A stretch of DNA of 24,446 bases from a virus. A program made the translations under genes and the position numbers. This document shows positions 4,931-15,329 of the stretch, one piece after another. The stretch is taken from positions 1-24,446 of the IMG/VR virus record IMGVR_UViG_3300031521_000344, one strand, 5' to 3'. The first letter of the stretch is position 1. Each line of letters opens with the position of its first letter. The notes under the pieces are model-generated. The model was given only the letters and a program-made list of their open reading frames with translations, searched no databases and had not been told where the DNA came from.

Positions 4931-5683
4931 TTAAAGTTCTTTCAGATTATTGAGAGCTTTGGTTAGCTCTTCGGTTACTTGGTAGGTCTTACCACCAATG
5001 TTTATTGTTGGTGGCGTTTCCGCTTCTTTTTCTTCGATGTCGTTTATCTCGTAATCACCAAGTACGTATTGAGCTTCCCAATAATCAGTACCCATTTGGT
5101 CTGTGACATTCGTAATTTTTCCAGTGTCATCTCCACCGATAAACCAGCCCTTTATGTATGCTTTTTTATCGCAGACCCGAGCATTGCCATAGACCCGAGC
5201 ATCGCCATAGACCTGAGCATCGCCATAGACCTGAGCATTGCCATAGACCCGAGCATCGCCATAGACCTGAGCATCGCCATAGACCTGAGCATTGCCATAG
5301 ACCCGAGCATCGCCATAGACCCGAGCATTGCCATAGACCTGAGCATTGCCATAGACCCGAGCATTGCCATAGACCTGAGCATTGCCATAGACCCGAGCAT
5401 CGCCATAGACCCGAGCATTGCCATAGACCTGAGCATCGCCATAGACCCAAGCATTGCCAGAGACCCGAGCATTGCCATAGACCTGAGCATCGCCATAGAC
5501 CCAAGCATTGCCAGAGACCCGAGCATCGCCATTACTTAGTTTTTCACTCTCAACAAATCCACCCTTTTCGCCTTTTTTCACACCACGTTCAGGAATGTCT
5601 ACAGTTGCTTCTATGCGGAAAAGCTTTACGCCCCACGCATTTATTTTGGTTTCAGTGGTAAGTTTAAATTTATATTCTGACAT
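4931..5683 (-). CDS. Hexapeptide-repeat (left-handed beta-helix) protein, 250 aa
   Basis: An N-terminal cap of about 51 residues (KGEKGGFVESEKLSNG) leads into 20 hexapeptides of the form G-[DN]-A-[RQW]-V-[YS] (residues 52-171) and then a C-terminal domain of about 79 residues. Three hexapeptides make one coil of a left-handed parallel beta-helix, so roughly 6-7 coils are predicted. Proteins with this cap and repeat are common in phages and are often annotated as polymer-forming or YdcK-like; they lack an evident acyltransferase active site and their role is unknown. The ATG overlaps the upstream TAA by one base (TAATG). The repeat DNA keeps all frames open, which creates spurious ORFs. Confidence 0.85.
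   Translation of the reverse strand: MSEYKFKLTTETKINAWGVKLFRIEATVDIPERGVKKGEKGGFVESEKLSNGDARVSGNAWVYGDAQVYGNARVSGNAWVYGDAQVYGNARVYGDARVYGNAQVYGNARVYGNAQVYGNARVYGDARVYGNAQVYGDAQVYGDARVYGNAQVYGDAQVYGDARVYGNARVCDKKAYIKGWFIGGDDTGKITNVTDQMGTDYWEAQYVLGDYEINDIEEKEAETPPTINIGGKTYQVTEELTKALNNLKEL
5171..5530. repeat. 18-bp tandem repeat (about 20 units) inside a CDS
   Basis: Twenty near-identical 18-base units, differing at a few positions (C/T in GAC-CTG against GAC-CCG, CAT-CGC against CAT-TGC), encode the hexapeptides. Being a multiple of three, gain or loss of units by slippage would change beta-helix length without breaking the frame. Confidence 0.92.
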
Positions 5684-6092: not shown

Positions 6093-6637
6093 CGTTGGTA
6101 GTTCTCCTTATGTGCGAGGATATACTCAACTTCCTGTTTTGCGTCCGCTATTATCTGCAACAACTCCGCTTTAGATGGGCGTTTGTAGGCTTCTGGGAGC
6201 TTTGAGAGCCGTTTTAGCTCCGCAACCGTAGCTTCACCGCATTTGAGCGCAAGACCCGTCTCATAGCCTTTGAGCATGTCACCCTTGTCTCGCCATATAT
6301 TGCAATGACGACACTGCAAATTGCAGTTATATTCATCAAAACGCAGCGAATAGACACCACGGGTGATGAAGTGACCATTATCCCAACCTTGTGACCATTT
6401 CCCATCACCTGAAAGAATGATTTGTGTGCGAGGGCAACTGATACACTCCCCCACCCAATCAGTACCAGTAAATGAGCTATCGCGTAATCGAATGTACTTA
6501 GAGAGGGCATCATCAGCAGGTTTTATGAGCTGTTGTGCGGTTTTCTGGTCTAGTTTCTTCCGAATGGGTGCTTTACCAAGTGGGAGGCGGGCTTTCATCT
6601 CGCGCACAATCTGTTGCTCTTTAGTTAGTTTTTTCAC
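6089..6637 (-). CDS. ninG: NinG/Rap-type recombination nuclease
   Basis: The 182-residue product matches the lambda NinG (Rap) family, structure-specific endonucleases acting on recombination intermediates such as Holliday junctions and D-loops. Visible signature: ALSKYIRLRD (44-53), C65xxC68, WDNGHFITRG (85-94) and RFDEYNCNLQCRHCN (99-113), i.e. a zinc-stabilised HNH-like core with H89, N104 and four Cys. The family usually runs about 150-210 residues, so this is full length. The start appears to be GTG 6637, overlapping the upstream gene by 17 bases; the SD is weak and translation is probably coupled. It lies beside ssDNA-binding and PD-(D/E)XK genes, a typical recombination cassette. Confidence 0.9.
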   Translation of the reverse strand: MKKLTKEQQIVREMKARLPLGKAPIRKKLDQKTAQQLIKPADDALSKYIRLRDSSFTGTDWVGECISCPRTQIILSGDGKWSQGWDNGHFITRGVYSLRFDEYNCNLQCRHCNIWRDKGDMLKGYETGLALKCGEATVAELKRLSKLPEAYKRPSKAELLQIIADAKQEVEYILAHKENYQR

Positions 6638-6836
6638 CTTTACGTGACTTCTTTCCCCCCATGCTGGAGATTGCTTTTAGTTTTTCTGGGTCAATTCCAC
6701 GGAACCCTCCGCGACTGCCGTTCTCAACATAGGTAACACGGGATTTCTTCTGAATGTCTTGGTAGTAGGCTCTGATAGCTTCTTCTGAACCTAATTTCTC
6801 AAGCATGGTTGTGTGGCGCTTCTCGGCAGAACTCAT
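6621..6836 (-). CDS. KGG-type small protein, 71 aa
   Basis: A charged N-terminal helix (MLEKLGSEEAIRAYYQDIQK) is followed by Gly/Lys motifs: GSRGGFRGIDPEKLKAISSM then GGKKSRKGEK. This resembles the KGG motif of stress-type and phage-borne basic proteins thought to bind nucleic acid. ATGA-coupled to the ssDNA-binding gene. A second protein with the same motif type lies at 7333-7617, so the pair brackets the ssDNA-binding gene. Confidence 0.7.
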   Translation of the reverse strand: MSSAEKRHTTMLEKLGSEEAIRAYYQDIQKKSRVTYVENGSRGGFRGIDPEKLKAISSMGGKKSRKGEKTN

Positions 6837-9697: not shown

Positions 9698-9816
9698 TCA
9701 AATAACCCTCCTTTATACTCTTTCCCACACCGCTCACACTCCCTGTACTCATCTGAATACGGGTACGACCAATGTCCGAGTAAGACACAAGCTAGTTTCT
9801 TTAGTATAAGTATCAC
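9694..9816 (-). CDS. Zinc-knuckle microprotein, 40 aa (GTG start)
   Basis: A GTG start at 9816 follows AAAGGGGGCAAC; there is no ATG in the frame. The product has a hydrophobic N-terminus (LILKKLACVLLGHW) and CERCGKEYKG at the end, the same H...CxxC plan as the 43-aa protein at 2257-2388. It is the first gene after the 9859-9887 promoter and is ATGA-coupled to YopX. Confidence 0.65.
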   Translation of the reverse strand: MILILKKLACVLLGHWSYPYSDEYRECERCGKEYKGGLFE

Positions 9817-9858
9817 GTTGCCCCCTTTGCTTTGCAAACCCTTGTTTATTACAGAGGT

Positions 9859-9887
9859 AGTGTAGCACACGGCTAGTTACAAGTCAA
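9859..9887 (-). promoter_or_regulatory. Leftward promoter TTGACT-17-TACACT with GTGTGC in spacer
   Basis: The minus strand has TTGACT (9887-9882), 17 bases containing AGCCGTGTGC and TACACT (9864-9859). The arrangement is nearly identical to the one at 5879-5907. It drives the leftward block that begins with the 40-aa and YopX genes. TTACAGAGGTAGT (9849-9861), a variant of a motif repeated in the 14.3-14.9 kb hub, overlaps its -10. Confidence 0.75.
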
Positions 9888-9923
9888 TAGCAATGTGCGC
9901 TTATCCACAGGATAATTTAAGAT

Positions 9924-9949
9924 AAAAAAAGAGACTTCATTGAGTCTCT
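9924..9949 (-). terminator. Leftward intrinsic terminator
   Basis: The stem pairs 9930-9936 with 9943-9949 (AGAGACT/AGTCTCT), with a six-base loop, followed leftward by seven T. It isolates the 9859-9887 promoter from upstream leftward transcription. Confidence 0.85.
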
Positions 9950-10002
9950 AGTTAGGGAGCTGCGAAACATCCCGTGCGATAACCGCAAGTTCATAATACA
10001 TG

Positions 10003-10033
10003 AAAATCGACTCCCAGTACATAGGAGTCGATT
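10003..10033 (-). terminator. Leftward intrinsic terminator-like hairpin
   Basis: A perfect ten-base stem, AATCGACTCC (10005-10014) with GGAGTCGATT (10024-10033), with a nine-base loop and a short T run leftward (TTTT). Between this and the 9924 terminator lies only a 17-codon ATG frame, which I do not call a gene. Confidence 0.65.
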
Positions 10034-10055
10034 AGCGCCATTTCTACTCTAACAT

Positions 10056-10086
10056 AAAACCCGCACAGGAGGGTAAATTGTGCGGG
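10056..10086 (-). terminator. Leftward intrinsic terminator CCCGCACA/TGTGCGGG
   Basis: An eight-base perfect stem (10060-10067 with 10079-10086), eleven-base loop, then TTTTAT leftward. Its arms contain the CGCACA word that is common elsewhere in the window. Confidence 0.7.
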
Positions 10087-10127
10087 CTGTGTCCAAAGCA
10101 CCTTGTCAGAGCTTGGGGGCAACTGAC
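10060..10127 (-). ncRNA. Candidate small RNA, about 68 nt, leftward
   Basis: An extended -10 (TATGC-TACAAT, -10 at 10139-10134) without a good -35 predicts a start near 10127. The transcript would begin TGTGTCAG, which can pair with CTGAC and GACACA further on, and would end at the CCCGCACA/TGTGCGGG terminator. No ORF with an SD lies within it. Direct evidence is limited to the promoter element, the self-complementarity and the terminator. Confidence 0.4.
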
Positions 10128-10310
10128 ACATGTATTGTAGCATAGACCCGTCCATATGGTAGACGGGCTTGTGCGGAAGTCGTTTAACGCACACACATAC
10201 TGTACCTCTGATAGACCACACAAACAGTAATAATTCTTGCATTTGAATGTGTGGGGTGCTACTATCTGAGTATCTTATTTGTCTCATTGCAGAAACAAAT
10301 AGGTACAAAG

Positions 10311-10333
10311 AAAAACACCCCCTTTCGGAGGTG
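10311..10333 (-). terminator. Leftward intrinsic terminator, GAAA loop
   Basis: The stem is CACCTCC/GGGGGTG (10333-10327 with 10322-10316, one mismatch) closed by a GAAA tetraloop and followed leftward by five T. It is only about 15 bases after the expected start of the 10354-10382 promoter, so it would act as an attenuator or end a very short RNA. Confidence 0.75.
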
Positions 10334-10353
10334 CTGTCTCATTGCCTACTTTT

Positions 10354-10382
10354 AGGTTAGCAAACGCACACATCTTTGTCAA
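10354..10382 (-). promoter_or_regulatory. Leftward promoter TTGACA-17-TAACCT with GTGTGCG in spacer
   Basis: Consensus TTGACA (10382-10377), a 17-base spacer with ATGTGTGCG and TAACCT (10359-10354). The word is placed nearer the middle of the spacer than in the 5.9 and 9.87 kb promoters. Downstream there are only terminators and hairpins down to 9924, no clear gene. Confidence 0.65.
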
Positions 10383-10402
10383 ATATTTACAATACAAAGT
10401 TC

Positions 10403-10567
10403 TCAGCCTTCAAAACTGAACCCGTTGAGTACAGACGAAAAACTAGGCTCTGTCCGCCCGCCTGACAACCTAGTCTCTGGCTTGTACTCAATTTGTGGCT
10501 TGCGATTGAGCTTCACCACCTCAAAAACTCCCACACACTTGTAAATCACTCTGTCTTTAGCCCTCAC
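10403..10567 (-). CDS. Doubtful small ORF, 54 aa
   Basis: A GTG-started leftward frame with protein-like content (VIYKCVGVFEVVKLNRKPQI near its start), lacking an SD and a clear promoter. It overlaps a long inverted repeat: TTGAGTACA (10425-10433) with TGTACTCAA (10483-10491), and inside it ACTAGG (10442-10447) with CCTAGT (10469-10474), the latter followed leftward by five T, so the DNA may instead be a structured RNA or terminator. I keep it as a low-confidence alternative. Confidence 0.25.
   Translation of the reverse strand: MRAKDRVIYKCVGVFEVVKLNRKPQIEYKPETRLSGGRTEPSFSSVLNGFSFEG
10425..10491. repeat. Nested inverted repeat / RNA stem
   Basis: The outer 9-base arms TTGAGTACA/TGTACTCAA and the inner 6-base arms ACTAGG/CCTAGT are separated by a symmetric 8x8 internal loop. 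Read leftward, the inner stem is followed by TTTTT, so it can act as an intrinsic terminator inside a larger fold. Confidence 0.65.
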
Positions 10568-10599
10568 CAGAGGACAAAGGCGGGTCTATGGAAAAATAC

Positions 10600-10627
10600 T
10601 TGACGCTTGTGTTTTTTAGAGTATATA
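10600..10627 (+). promoter_or_regulatory. Rightward promoter TTGACG-16-TATATA
   Basis: TTGACG (10600-10605), a 16-base spacer and TATATA (10622-10627) on the plus strand, with start expected near 10634. It is convergent to the leftward operon that ends just to its right. Confidence 0.6.
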
Positions 10628-10633
10628 TAAAAG

Positions 10634-10775
10634 TGAACACTACCAAACCTAGCAGTTTCGCACCTCCCACTACTCACTCCGTTACAAAAACCTCACAATC
10701 AAACTCTCTTTCGCTATGGGTTGGCATAGCACTAGATACTAAAAAAGACCGCCCACTCCTGAACGGTCTTTTGTT
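10634..10775 (+). ncRNA. Candidate small RNA, about 140 nt, rightward
   Basis: The segment lies between a rightward promoter and an intrinsic terminator, has no SD-preceded ORF and contains an internal hairpin GCTATG-GGTTGG-CATAGC. The open 63-codon frame starting at 10588 begins upstream of the -35 and so cannot be translated from this transcript's 5' end. A regulatory RNA is the simplest reading; expression data are needed. Confidence 0.5.
10741..10775. terminator. Bidirectional intrinsic terminator
   Basis: Stem AAGACCG (10745-10751) with CGGTCTT (10764-10770) and a twelve-base loop. Leftward it is followed by six T, rightward by TTTTG. It ends the leftward 13.7-10.8 kb operon and the rightward small RNA. 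Confidence 0.85.
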
Positions 10776-10808
10776 ATAAACACCTACCTTACAGACCCCA
10801 TCGAACTA

Positions 10809-10964
10809 TCATATCACATCAAAGAACATAAGCAACTGTACCAGTGGATAACCCACACCCCACAAGACCAAGAGTTGTAGCTTCAACCGTTTAATTGAGT
10901 ACCACACAATCCCGAAGAATGTGAAGTCATCAATCTTAACTTTGTACGTCTTAATGCGCCCAAT
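10809..10964 (-). CDS. Small membrane-type protein, start uncertain
   Basis: The frame is open from 10994 to a TGA at 10809-10811 and reads like protein: RIKTYKVKIDDFTFFGIVWY, then a hydrophobic end (LQLLVLWGVGYPLVQLLMFF), probably one membrane segment. No ATG, GTG or TTG lies early in the frame; the coordinates given use an ATT. Alternatively an ATG at 10978 in the neighbouring frame reaches it by a -1 shift at C-TAA-AAT (A-AAA slip). It lies last in the operon, before the terminator at 10741. It may be a decayed gene. Confidence 0.4.
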   Translation of the reverse strand: MGRIKTYKVKIDDFTFFGIVWYSIKRLKLQLLVLWGVGYPLVQLLMFFDVI

Positions 10965-10981
10965 TTTAGGTCGTGCATTAT

Positions 10982-11239
10982 TTAATGTGCGATTTTAGTA
11001 TATGTGTAGTTAGTTGTCTTTAAGTCCGTGCCATCCAAAGTGATTGCTTGTGCGCACGTTTTCATCGGCACACGCCTTGTCCCGTTCTTTTCAGCCTCAC
11101 ACACCTGAATAGTTGACGCACTTAGAGCGTCTGTGTTGTCACTTTCAATTTCAATGGCATTCATAGACGCATTGAGATAGAAAAGCCCACAGACGGTCAC
11201 TATGAGCGCCACAATGTATATTTGGATGACTTGTTTCAT
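10982..11239 (-). CDS. Membrane-anchored or exported protein, 85 aa
   Basis: The N-terminus (MKQVIQIYIVALIVTVCGLF) is a signal anchor or signal peptide, followed by a polar outer domain with two Cys (QVCEAEKNG, KTCAQA) that could form a disulphide. The ATG overlaps the stop of the Gly-rich repeat gene (ATGA), so the two are co-translated. Placed near the lysozyme-like gene, it could be part of lysis or envelope modification, which is inference. Confidence 0.7.
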   Translation of the reverse strand: MKQVIQIYIVALIVTVCGLFYLNASMNAIEIESDNTDALSASTIQVCEAEKNGTRRVPMKTCAQAITLDGTDLKTTNYTYTKIAH

Positions 11240-11574
11240 AGTATACCGCCGTTGCCGTTGCCGTCGCCGTAGCCGTAGCCGTAGCCGTAGCCGTCGCCGT
11301 AGCCGTTGCCGTTGCCGTAGCCGTTGCCGTTGCCGTTGCCGTAGCCGTAGCCGTAGCCGTAGCCGTCGCCGTCGCCGTAGCCGTAGCCGTAGCCGTCGCC
11401 GTAGCCGTTGCCGTTGCCGTAGCCGTAGCCGTCGCCGTAGCCGTAGCCGTAGCCGTAGCCGTCGCCGTAGCCGTTGCCGTTGCCGTCGCCGTCGCCGTAG
11501 CCGTTCTTACTAGTACCATCTAACGACATAGGGCGTACTTCGTCTGCTGTATTAGCATTTCTAGCGTAGCTCAT
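11236..11574 (-). CDS. Gly-Tyr/Asn/Asp dipeptide-repeat protein, 112 aa
   Basis: After a 23-residue head (MSYARNANTADEVRPMSLDG) come 43 dipeptides X-Gly (residues 24-109), where by my count X is Tyr 22 times, Asn 12 and Asp 9, then GIL. The region is low-complexity, probably disordered or amyloid/adhesive-like, with no signal peptide. Similar G-Y/N/D-rich ORFs occur in other phages but I know no function. It is coupled to the 85-aa membrane protein. The encoding hexamer keeps several other frames open, producing false ORFs such as poly-TA and poly-RS. Confidence 0.75.
   Translation of the reverse strand: MSYARNANTADEVRPMSLDGTSKNGYGDGDGNGNGYGDGYGYGYGYGDGYGYGNGNGYGDGYGYGYGDGDGYGYGYGYGNGNGNGYGNGNGYGDGYGYGYGYGDGNGNGGIL
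11248..11505. repeat. 6-bp tandem repeat (GGCNAC, 43 units)
   Basis: Forty-three uninterrupted units of GCCGTN on the plus strand (NAC-GGC on the coding strand). Only one base varies, giving TAC, AAC or GAC; CAC never occurs. Slippage would alter length in steps of two residues without a frameshift. Confidence 0.93.
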
Positions 11575-13599: not shown

Positions 13600-13685
13600 A
13601 GCTTTATTGCCTTTCCTATGTTATTACTAATTTGCTCACCTGTAACGATGGGATGTGTGCGCTTGCCGATGCGCTGCTCATTCAA
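13596..13685 (-). CDS. Possible first ORF of leftward unit, 29 aa
   Basis: A TTG-started frame that ends ATGA-coupled to the 95-aa gene and reads EQRIGKRTHPIVTGEQISNN in its middle. No SD is seen and it overlaps one arm of a long inverted repeat (13653-13662). Kept because the coupling pattern is the rule in this operon; it may be a leader peptide or not translated. Confidence 0.3.
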   Translation of the reverse strand: MNEQRIGKRTHPIVTGEQISNNIGKAIKL

Positions 13686-13758
13686 TATTTTGAACCTGTC
13701 ATAGAGGCTGCGGGGTTGTCTAGTCCGCTATTGTGTCATACGTTATGGGCGCACACAT
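13653..13758. repeat. Long inverted repeat ATGTGTGCGC/GCGCACACAT
   Basis: Perfect ten-base arms at 13653-13662 and 13749-13758 with an 86-base interior. No T run follows. The arms contain the over-represented GTGTGCG word in opposite orientations. Confidence 0.75.
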
Positions 13759-13882
13759 TCTTAATCGTTTTATATCACATAAGTGATACTTATCTGCGCC
13801 AAGCCCTGCCACCCTAAGGACATTCACTGCTTAACTTGCACCCACTACTTGAGCGGGCTAGTCCAGCGTTGACAGGACACGG

Positions 13883-13981
13883 CGCACATAATAGGGGGCA
13901 AAATATCTTATACACCGCATATCCCGCCCGAAGGCTTCTTGTGTCGCATTCGCATATTTTGCCACCCATCTAGTGTGTGCG
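13883..13981. repeat. Nested inverted repeat GGCAAAATAT/ATATTTTGCC
   Basis: The inner perfect ten-base arms (13897-13906, 13954-13963) extend through GGG/CCC with a one-base bulge, and the outer CGCACA (13883-13888) can pair with TGTGCG (13976-13981). No coding potential was seen. Confidence 0.7.
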
Positions 13982-14055
13982 GGCATTCTCGTGGTCTCTA
14001 TTTCTAGATGTAGCCCGTATTTTCAGCAACTGCCAACACCGTTGCTACCCGCACA
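13976..14055. repeat. Inverted repeat TGTGCGGG/CCCGCACA with inner hairpins
   Basis: Arms at 13976-13983 and 14048-14055 enclose GGGC/GCCC and AGCAAC/GTTGCT pairings, giving a possible three-way junction. The left arm is shared with the outer stem of the preceding repeat, so the two folds are mutually exclusive. Confidence 0.6.
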
Positions 14056-14115
14056 AATCGACTAATTGTTAAGTTACTGGCATAGGTGCTCGCGCACACA
14101 TCTTCGGAGGCAATG

Positions 14116-14186
14116 ACTAAGGACTAGTAGAGTGTAGCCGTTGAGGGTTCAAACTTGACCGTCTGTCGCTTTCGTTCGTCCTTAGT
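14116..14186. repeat. Inverted repeat ACTAAGGAC/GTCCTTAGT
   Basis: Perfect nine-base arms (14116-14124, 14178-14186) with a 53-base interior. The interior contains GGGTTCAAAC, which looks like a tRNA T-arm but has no fitting stem, so no tRNA is called. Confidence 0.6.
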
Positions 14187-14230
14187 TGTAAATGTTCGTG
14201 GTTGGGGCTTTCGCCTTGTTCACTGCATAC

Positions 14231-14260
14231 ATCTTACCACGCACACGGTTACTATGTCAA
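14231..14260 (-). promoter_or_regulatory. Leftward promoter TTGACA-18-TAAGAT with CGTGTGCG in spacer
   Basis: TTGACA (14260-14255), an 18-base spacer with ACCGTGTGCG and TAAGAT (14236-14231) on the minus strand. It is a good candidate for the start of the leftward 13.7-10.8 kb unit, with a long structured leader of about 550 bases before the first gene. Confidence 0.6.
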
Positions 14261-14316
14261 TACCTCACACAAAGATAATTGCACTTTTCTCAGCTAACTC
14301 TCAGTTAAGCACATAC

Positions 14317-14868
14317 TAACAGGGGTCAGCGCACACATTTACTCTCAATCCTGATACTCCGCACACATACCCCTATTACTAAGAACAAGCTACAAGCCAG
14401 TTAAAAGCCTGTAACTATCCCGCACACAGCAGTAGTCCTAGAACACCACAAAGCCTCACAACTACACCCACAGCCCGCACACACTACCCTTACTTGCATG
14501 CAGCTAACCCCCTGTACCAGCCCAATCCCGCGCACATACCATAACTTATTACCTAATAAGACAGTACTAATAGAACAAAGACTATATGTGTACTTGAGCA
14601 CCCTAATTCAGTGTCAGTCCTCCTACCCTAACCTAACAGATACGACGCACAATACACATTGTACGACATAACAGGGGTCAGACAGCACATATACTATATA
14701 TCTATCCATCTATCTCTAACTAAAGCCCACTCAATCACTTGAGAACACCAGGTATAACAGAGGTGATTAGCCACACATTCCTTAGGGGTACGGGGGAGCT
14801 TTATAGGAGAGGTACTAGTATATAAGGGTGTTTCACTCTATAGTGCACCAAAAAATAACAGAGGTGGT
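14317..14868 (+). repeat. TAACAGRGGT motif, four copies
   Basis: TAACAGGGGTCAG at 14317-14329 and 14669-14681; TAACAGAGGTGAT at 14755-14767; TAACAGAGGTGGT at 14856-14868. Related copies lie at 9849-9861 and, on the minus strand, at 12278-12290. The remainder of 14539-14840 shows no gene. Confidence 0.6.
14330..14538 (+). repeat. Iteron-like array of CGCACACA
   Basis: Same-orientation copies start at 14330, 14360, 14421, 14476 and (as CGCACATA) 14531, i.e. spacings of 30, 61, 55 and 55. More isolated copies lie at 14093 and 14240. No coding potential was convincing here. Such arrays can be replication-initiator or regulator sites. Confidence 0.6.
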
Positions 14869-14917
14869 CTACAAGTTCACTCCTAACCGCACCAAAAATA
14901 TACGCCTATGGTCTACA
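14845..14917 (+). repeat. 44-bp-spaced direct repeat upstream of the rightward promoter
   Basis: GCACCAAAAAATA...GGTCTACA (14845-14873) recurs as GCACCAAAAATATA...GGTCTACA (14889-14917), with 44 bases between equivalent points (about four helical turns). The second copy ends five bases before the -35 at 14922, the position of an operator or activator site. Confidence 0.7.
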
Positions 14918-14921
14918 GGTA

Positions 14922-14951
14922 TTGACTATTAATACTGTTAGTATATATACT
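14922..14951 (+). promoter_or_regulatory. Rightward (packaging/virion) promoter
   Basis: TTGACT (14922-14927) and TATACT (14946-14951, 18-base spacer) or TATATA (14944-14949, 16-base spacer). The expected start coincides with the ATG at 14958. It is the only promoter I see before the TerS/TerL genes. Confidence 0.7.
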
Positions 14952-14957
14952 ATTAGC

Positions 14958-15329
14958 ATGTTAGTATCAGTATACATACGAAAAGAAGATGAAGACCTAT
15001 GGAGAGAACTCCCCAAGAAGTCAGAAGCTATCCACGCCCTCCTACACGGGCAGAAGATAGCCGAAGTGTTCATAGATGAAGTAGTCAACGAACCTATCAA
15101 GCTCAACCCACTTGCTACCTTTGACCCAAAGAAGAAGGCCGCGTTTGATGACCTAAAGGATTTGATTAGTAGTGGCGGAGTTCCTGCGTCCGTGATTGAG
15201 CCAGAGGGTACTATGCCTACTTGTTGCTCTAATAAGAAGAAGCTCTGCAAACACTGGGTTTGGGATGGGAACGCTGGCGGCCACACAAACTCATTATCTA
15301 GTGAGTTCCTTGAAGCTCCTGCATGGTAA
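14958..15329 (+). CDS. RHH-like putative DNA-binding regulator, 123 aa, leaderless
   Basis: The start ATG 14958 lies about seven bases after the -10, so the transcript would begin at or next to the start codon. The first 30 residues (MLVSVYIRKEDEDLWRELPK then SEAIHALLHG) fit a ribbon-helix-helix pattern: a short strand, a turn, then two helices. The rest is charged, with CCSNKKKLCKHW near residues 89-100 that could bind a metal. RHH proteins bind DNA repeats as dimers, and the gene abuts a direct-repeat operator candidate. The fold is inferred from a short stretch, so certainty is moderate; another small-protein fold is possible. Confidence 0.65.
   Translation: MLVSVYIRKEDEDLWRELPKKSEAIHALLHGQKIAEVFIDEVVNEPIKLNPLATFDPKKKAAFDDLKDLISSGGVPASVIEPEGTMPTCCSNKKKLCKHWVWDGNAGGHTNSLSSEFLEAPAW

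Follow-up and report, generated by a model that had tools for sequence, protein, structure and literature searches.

In lambda-type immunity and early control regions, divergent promoters and operator clusters lie between two gene arms. The stoperators of cluster A mycobacteriophages are repeated asymmetric operators in phage non-coding DNA, and iteron plasmid origins likewise carry repeated short sites in non-coding DNA. In Xer recombination sites, the usual XerD arm is TTATGTTAAAT. The layout of dif is two 11-bp half-sites with a 6-bp centre (PMC5357621).

The non-coding hub described here, which separates two divergent gene arms of a tailed phage, resembles each of these systems in part. 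As in the lambda-type region, predicted divergent promoters and operator-like clusters are found between the arms; however, no cI/Cro-type repressor was found, the rightward promoter is leaderless and the first rightward gene is RHH-like. With the stoperators it shares a short, non-palindromic motif repeated in phage non-coding DNA. This motif (TAACAGRGGT) differs from them in sequence, in its occurrence across phages whose genes are unrelated and in its pairing with a dyad; no repressor was identified. The likeness to iteron origins lies in another repeated site, CGCACACA, but its spacing is irregular, it is not kept in relatives and no Rep gene was recognised. The core of the dyad arms, CGYAYAA, is similar to the XerC arm of dif, cer and psi, whereas both dyad arms are of the same type and the dyad lies beside TAACAGRGGT in phages. 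Its 11+6+11 layout is that of these Xer core sites (PMC5357621).

Genome context and relatives

The window (the whole stretch of 24,446 nucleotides that was analysed) is part of the genome of a tailed phage. It is contained whole, with three mismatches, in IMG/VR record 3300030339_000087 (G001, 43,390 bp). The contig ends of G001 share an imperfect 785/821-bp repeat, and the genome is therefore probably near complete. This repeat (L011 1-785 and the end of L014) is direct, with 97.7% and 93.2% identity in two blocks, and differs from the exact end overlaps of relatives. The relatives G002 (L016), G003 (L017), G004 (L018) and G005 (L025), with 45-61% portal identity, terminate in exact overlaps of 69-127 bp and therefore look like closed circles. 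No terminase relative was found in 84,980 GTDB genomes, and TerL had no match in GenBank phages. The lysin and a tail protein point to Gram-positive or actinobacterial-type hosts, a hint that proves nothing. A further genome, G007 (L181-L183), is a mosaic: it has a capsid protein of the family (79% to G004) and the non-coding element in common with it, and its terminase and portal are unrelated.

The features of the window are listed in Table 1. Besides these, a Y/G/D/N-rich protein is encoded at positions 11236-11574 by an array of hexamer repeats (CCGTAG/CCGTTG/CCGTCG), and a similar-looking repeat gene occurs at 376-837 of G005. A gene at 4931-5683 contains about 20 VYGDA/VYGNA hexapeptide repeats and is beta-helix-like.

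Table 1 Features of the hub and its surroundings, in window coordinates.
Feature	Position	Strand	Remarks
Leftward arm, left of hub		-	Small genes; NinG, YopX, PD-(D/E)XK exonuclease
Second control site	9849..9909	.	TTACAGAGGT at 9849; GTGTGC leftward promoter 9859-9887; exact DnaA box TTATCCACA 9901-9909
First gene of leftward arm, 95 aa	13312..13599	-	ORF with AGGAAAGGC upstream
Non-coding divergent control region (hub)	13600..14957	.	No plausible coding frames; gap syntenic in relatives
CGCACACA	13654..13661	-	
CGCACACA	13750..13757	+	
CGCACACA	13974..13981	-	
CGCACACA	14093..14100	+	
Putative leftward promoter	14231..14260	-	TTGACA-18-TAAGAT, GTGTGCG in spacer
CGCACACG	14240..14247	+	Variant in spacer of leftward promoter
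TAACAGGGGT	14317..14326	+	Kept in relatives' hubs
Same-orientation CGCACACA array	14330..14538	+	Copies at 14330, 14360, 14421, 14476; variant CGCACATA at 14531
11+6+11 dyad	14642..14669	.	ACGACGCACAA-TACACA-TTGTACGACAT; also present next to TAACAGRGGT in 13 further phages
TAACAGGGGT	14669..14678	+	Abuts dyad
TAACAGAGGT	14755..14764	+	
Two-copy direct repeat, 44-bp spacing	14845-14873, 14889-14917	+	Copy 2 ends a few bp before -35
TAACAGAGGT	14856..14865	+	
Predicted rightward promoter	14922..14951	+	TTGACT-18-TATACT; six bases before ATG 14958, leaderless
RHH-like gene, 123 aa	14958..15329	+	First of rightward arm
Rightward arm, right of hub		+	RHH-like gene, terminase, portal, structural genes

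The hub and its rightward promoter

A first-pass annotation of the sequence had drawn the hub as a non-coding region at 13653-14957. Its non-coding character was upheld, and its limits are better placed at 13600-14957. No convincing coding frame was found in it, the sole ORF with an SD-like sequence being 26 aa long, and no RNA family of Rfam matched it, even at a relaxed threshold. A coding explanation was therefore dropped. The same gap is non-coding in the relatives.

The inverted repeats of the first-pass annotation are present but not long: one, at 13891/13954, has 16 nt (88%), and the other has 14 nt and is perfect, with its arms 488 bp apart. The 44-bp-spaced direct repeat is real and is made up of GCACCAAAAA (14845/14889) and TGGTCTACA (14865/14909). 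Outward-facing promoters were predicted in both directions as had been described, although the region's four promoter-like sites do not exceed the 5.5 expected from shuffles. The assignment of the hub as a control region agrees with the syntenic gap, the divergent arms, the conservation of TAACAGGGGT and the leaderless promoter, which is kept in the nearest relative, L016 (TTGACA...TATACTATTCACATG). Conserved coding frames, or motifs that are not conserved in related phages, had been named at first pass as evidence against it; the assignment passes this test, as TAACAGGGGT is conserved in the hubs of relatives. The counterpart gene starts in G003 and G005 have SD-like leaders.

The N-terminus encoded by the gene at 14958 (YIRxEDxxxW...KxxxIHxxL) is common to L016, L017 and L125. 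In the structure model, residues 1-30 (pLDDT 77-85) form an extended start, not assigned as a strand, and helices at 9-17 and 21-29. A PDB fold search with this model gave no match and the window protein had no RHH match in Pfam; RHH_1 and RHH_5 matched the counterparts in G005 and L122 weakly, below the cut-off. An RHH fold for this product is likely, if weakly supported.

A composite element shared by phages with unrelated genes

All four TAACAGRGGT motifs previously noticed in the hub are exact copies, against 0.0075 expected and a shuffle maximum of one. In an unbiased 9-mer search over the five family hubs, AACAGGGGT alone was present in 5/5 and TAACAGGGGT in 4/5; by our own arithmetic, fewer than 1e-5 9-mers would be common to five hubs by chance. 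Outside the hubs, AACAGGGGT occurs once across the five family genomes. With at most one mismatch, TAACAGGGGT occurs 14 times in 8.8 kb of hubs versus 14 times in 238 kb outside, a 27-fold enrichment. A conserved hub in relatives, one of the checks proposed at first pass, is found as a syntenic non-coding gap that carries AACAGGGGT in all five of these genomes. Exact copies also occur in the same place in the independent relatives L122 and L125, and the 8-mer AACAGGGG in L124 and L129, all four upstream of the same gene block. Orientation and copy number of TAACAGRGGT vary among phages.

IMG/VR was scanned for pairs of TAACAGRGGT copies 62-91 bp apart, which gave 50 loci. With our own record left out, both copies were non-coding in 23 of 49, compared with about 20% non-coding DNA (P ~2e-5, the two copies treated as one draw; a few loci share sequence, and a few, such as L155 and L175, are GC-rich tandem repeats that may differ in kind). 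In L132 (2702-2839), three near-identical units ggacaatAACAGGGGTggaaattgtccccc contain a short inverted repeat with the motif in its loop.

A second element, the dyad, had been missed at first pass. Its form is GTCGCACAA-N6-TTGTRCGAC, with the arm consensus ATGTCGCACAA around six variable bases, and in the window it runs into TAACAGGGGT at 14669. The dyad was noticed by reading motif contexts and had no part in the selection of the TAACAGRGGT pairs. With matches of at least 16/20 accepted, 14 non-redundant phages have the dyad, and in each of them it lies no more than about 60 bp from TAACAGRGGT (G001, G005, G007, L131, L142, L143, L145, L153, L165, L166, L167, L176, L179 and MW202497.1 of GenBank, for which the distance was read from the sequence); the sites of L131 and MW202497.1 are identical, and these two may be related. 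There were two other matches, both kilobases away, and mononucleotide shuffles gave six in about 1.3 Mb. Frequent distances to the dyad are 0, 1 or 5 bp for the TAACAG end and 2 or 6 bp for the GGGGT end. In G002, G003, G004 and L122 the motif is kept and no dyad is recognisable. Literature text searches on both motifs returned no relevant paper, and the composite element is apparently undescribed. MW202497.1 (L186), which carries it, has an annotated sigma factor (cnrH) at 6293-6745.

CGCACACA and the leftward promoters

Eight exact copies of CGCACACA occur in 13600-14957, whereas 2000 dinucleotide shuffles gave 0.08 on average and two at most. The first-pass annotation had described an iteron-like series at 30/61/55/55-base spacing. 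This spacing is correct, although the fifth member is imperfect, and it is neither constant nor a helical multiple. The rest of G001 contains 11 further copies, and each of five other genomes checked contains none or one, never in the hub.

Among all TTGACW-16/18-(-10) candidates in the non-coding DNA of G001, the four leftward intergenic promoters (window 14260, 10382, 9887 and 5907) all carry GTGTGC in the spacer; neither of the rightward ones (17759 and 14922) does. TGTGC directly adjoins the -10 in two of these four, where GTGTGC may be no more than an extended -10 (TRTGn), but not in the remaining two. Upstream of the leftward promoter lies the hub array, in the same orientation. Because all four leftward promoters carry GTGTGC in the spacer, we infer that CGCACACA is a phage-specific early-promoter element rather than a set of iterons. 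Conserved iterons were dropped as an explanation, since CGCACACA is missing from the relatives' hubs and is associated with leftward promoters.

Proposed function and alternative explanations

Our verdict is that the hub is a divergent control region, and that the composite element in it is widespread and apparently undescribed. We consider it most probable (roughly 55%) that it is an early/late control region whose composite element is read by a host-encoded, or widespread phage, protein. In this tailed phage with a genome of about 43 kb, the leftward promoter (TSS near 14224) would drive the early arm under the control of the phage-specific CGCACAC(A), which also marks the other leftward promoters. 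The leaderless rightward promoter would drive the RHH-like gene, followed by the terminase and structural arm. Within the hub, TAACAGRGGT and the adjacent dyad would be bound by a DNA-binding protein that is host-encoded or widely shared among phages. A host-encoded binder is the most likely one, because many phages with unrelated genes share the element, and it would tie the early/late switch, and possibly the start of replication, to the host.

It had also been suggested that RHH-type regulators bind such arrays. The RHH-like N-terminus gives weak support to this. However, an RHH protein is unlikely as the general TAACAGRGGT binder because G004 and G007 have the motif and no RHH gene was seen beside it, and we keep it only as a possibility.

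The hub might instead be primarily a replication origin, as the first-pass annotation proposed, with TAACAGRGGT as initiator sites, DnaA helping via TTATCCACA, and the CGCACACA array as iterons. In motif-bearing phages, TTATCCACA occurs 11 times in 45.7 kb near TAACAGRGGT versus 13 times in 449 kb far from it, and letter-permuted controls near the motif gave a mean of 0.57 and a maximum of five. L139, L160, L166 and L167 have DnaA boxes 13-39 bp away from the motif, and G002 and G003 have them within their hubs. In non-coding DNA alone, however, only about 3-fold enrichment is left (8 in 24.4 kb versus 7 in 62.3 kb); the non-coding DNA of unselected capsid relatives has 2 per 87.3 kb. The hub of the window has no exact box, and the sole intergenic one lies in another gap, at 9901. 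The irregularly spaced CGCACACA copies track promoters, and AT content is not unusually high over most of the hub. Per 80 bp, AT content reaches 67.5% at most in the hub; the window maximum of 73.75%, starting at 14914-14921, covers the rightward promoter and the gene start. No Rep or initiator gene was identified among the proteins scanned, many small genes having no family match or being unscanned. GC skew, put forward as a check, was extreme at the hub in G003 only; an AT-skew minimum lay at or near the hub in G001-G005, which gene direction can explain. An origin function of the hub is possible, but as its primary role we regard it as unlikely.

Should this phage replicate from a DnaA-type origin, an equally good or better candidate for it would be the gap at 9.7-10.98 kb, whose DnaA box lies about 50 bp from TTACAGAGGT. 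This second long non-coding gap (9700-10980) contains two CGCACACA copies (10188 and 10365), two GTGTGC-bearing leftward promoters and, as read by eye, seemingly several leftward intrinsic terminators.

Somewhat less probable still is that the dyad is a dif/cer-like core site for host Xer recombinases, with TAACAGRGGT as an accessory sequence, serving multimer resolution or integration at the host dif. Two inverted 11-bp arms around a centre within the 6-8 bp of Xer core sites were found in the window and the 13 other phages, the 6-bp centre is variable, and G001, G005 and G007 have one site per genome. A tyrosine recombinase of their own was not found in 17 of the 19 dyad-carrier records searched, some of which are fragments. 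However, distinct XerC-type and XerD-type arms were not found: both arms fit the one consensus, and the usual XerD arm is absent. The dyad was not classed as a dif site, despite its layout, because its arms are alike. Moreover, relatives that lack the dyad still have the motif, and the dyad carriers G005 and G024 have an integrase of their own. Another reading is about as doubtful: many unrelated tailed phages would share one undescribed docking module for host factors, a Xer-like dyad with TAACAGRGGT and often DnaA boxes, at which host proteins replicate the circular genome or keep it monomeric.

Finally, TAACAGRGGT lies upstream of terminase genes in G001-G005, L122, L124 and L125, but a packaging (pac or cos) site recognised by the small terminase encoded just downstream is very improbable and was dropped, because the motif has the opposite orientation in G003 and L122, occurs four times along a 540-bp stretch of the window, and recurs with a dyad, in three copies, in the non-coding gap of G007, where the terminase is unrelated and away from it.

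For the preferred reading, an early/late control region read by a host-encoded or widespread phage protein, the recurrence of the element in phages with few or no recognised genes in common points to a common partner in their hosts. The composite element may serve as a sequence handle to group such phages and lead to the host lineage. It also offers a testable site for how a phage without a recognised replication initiator begins transcription or replication.
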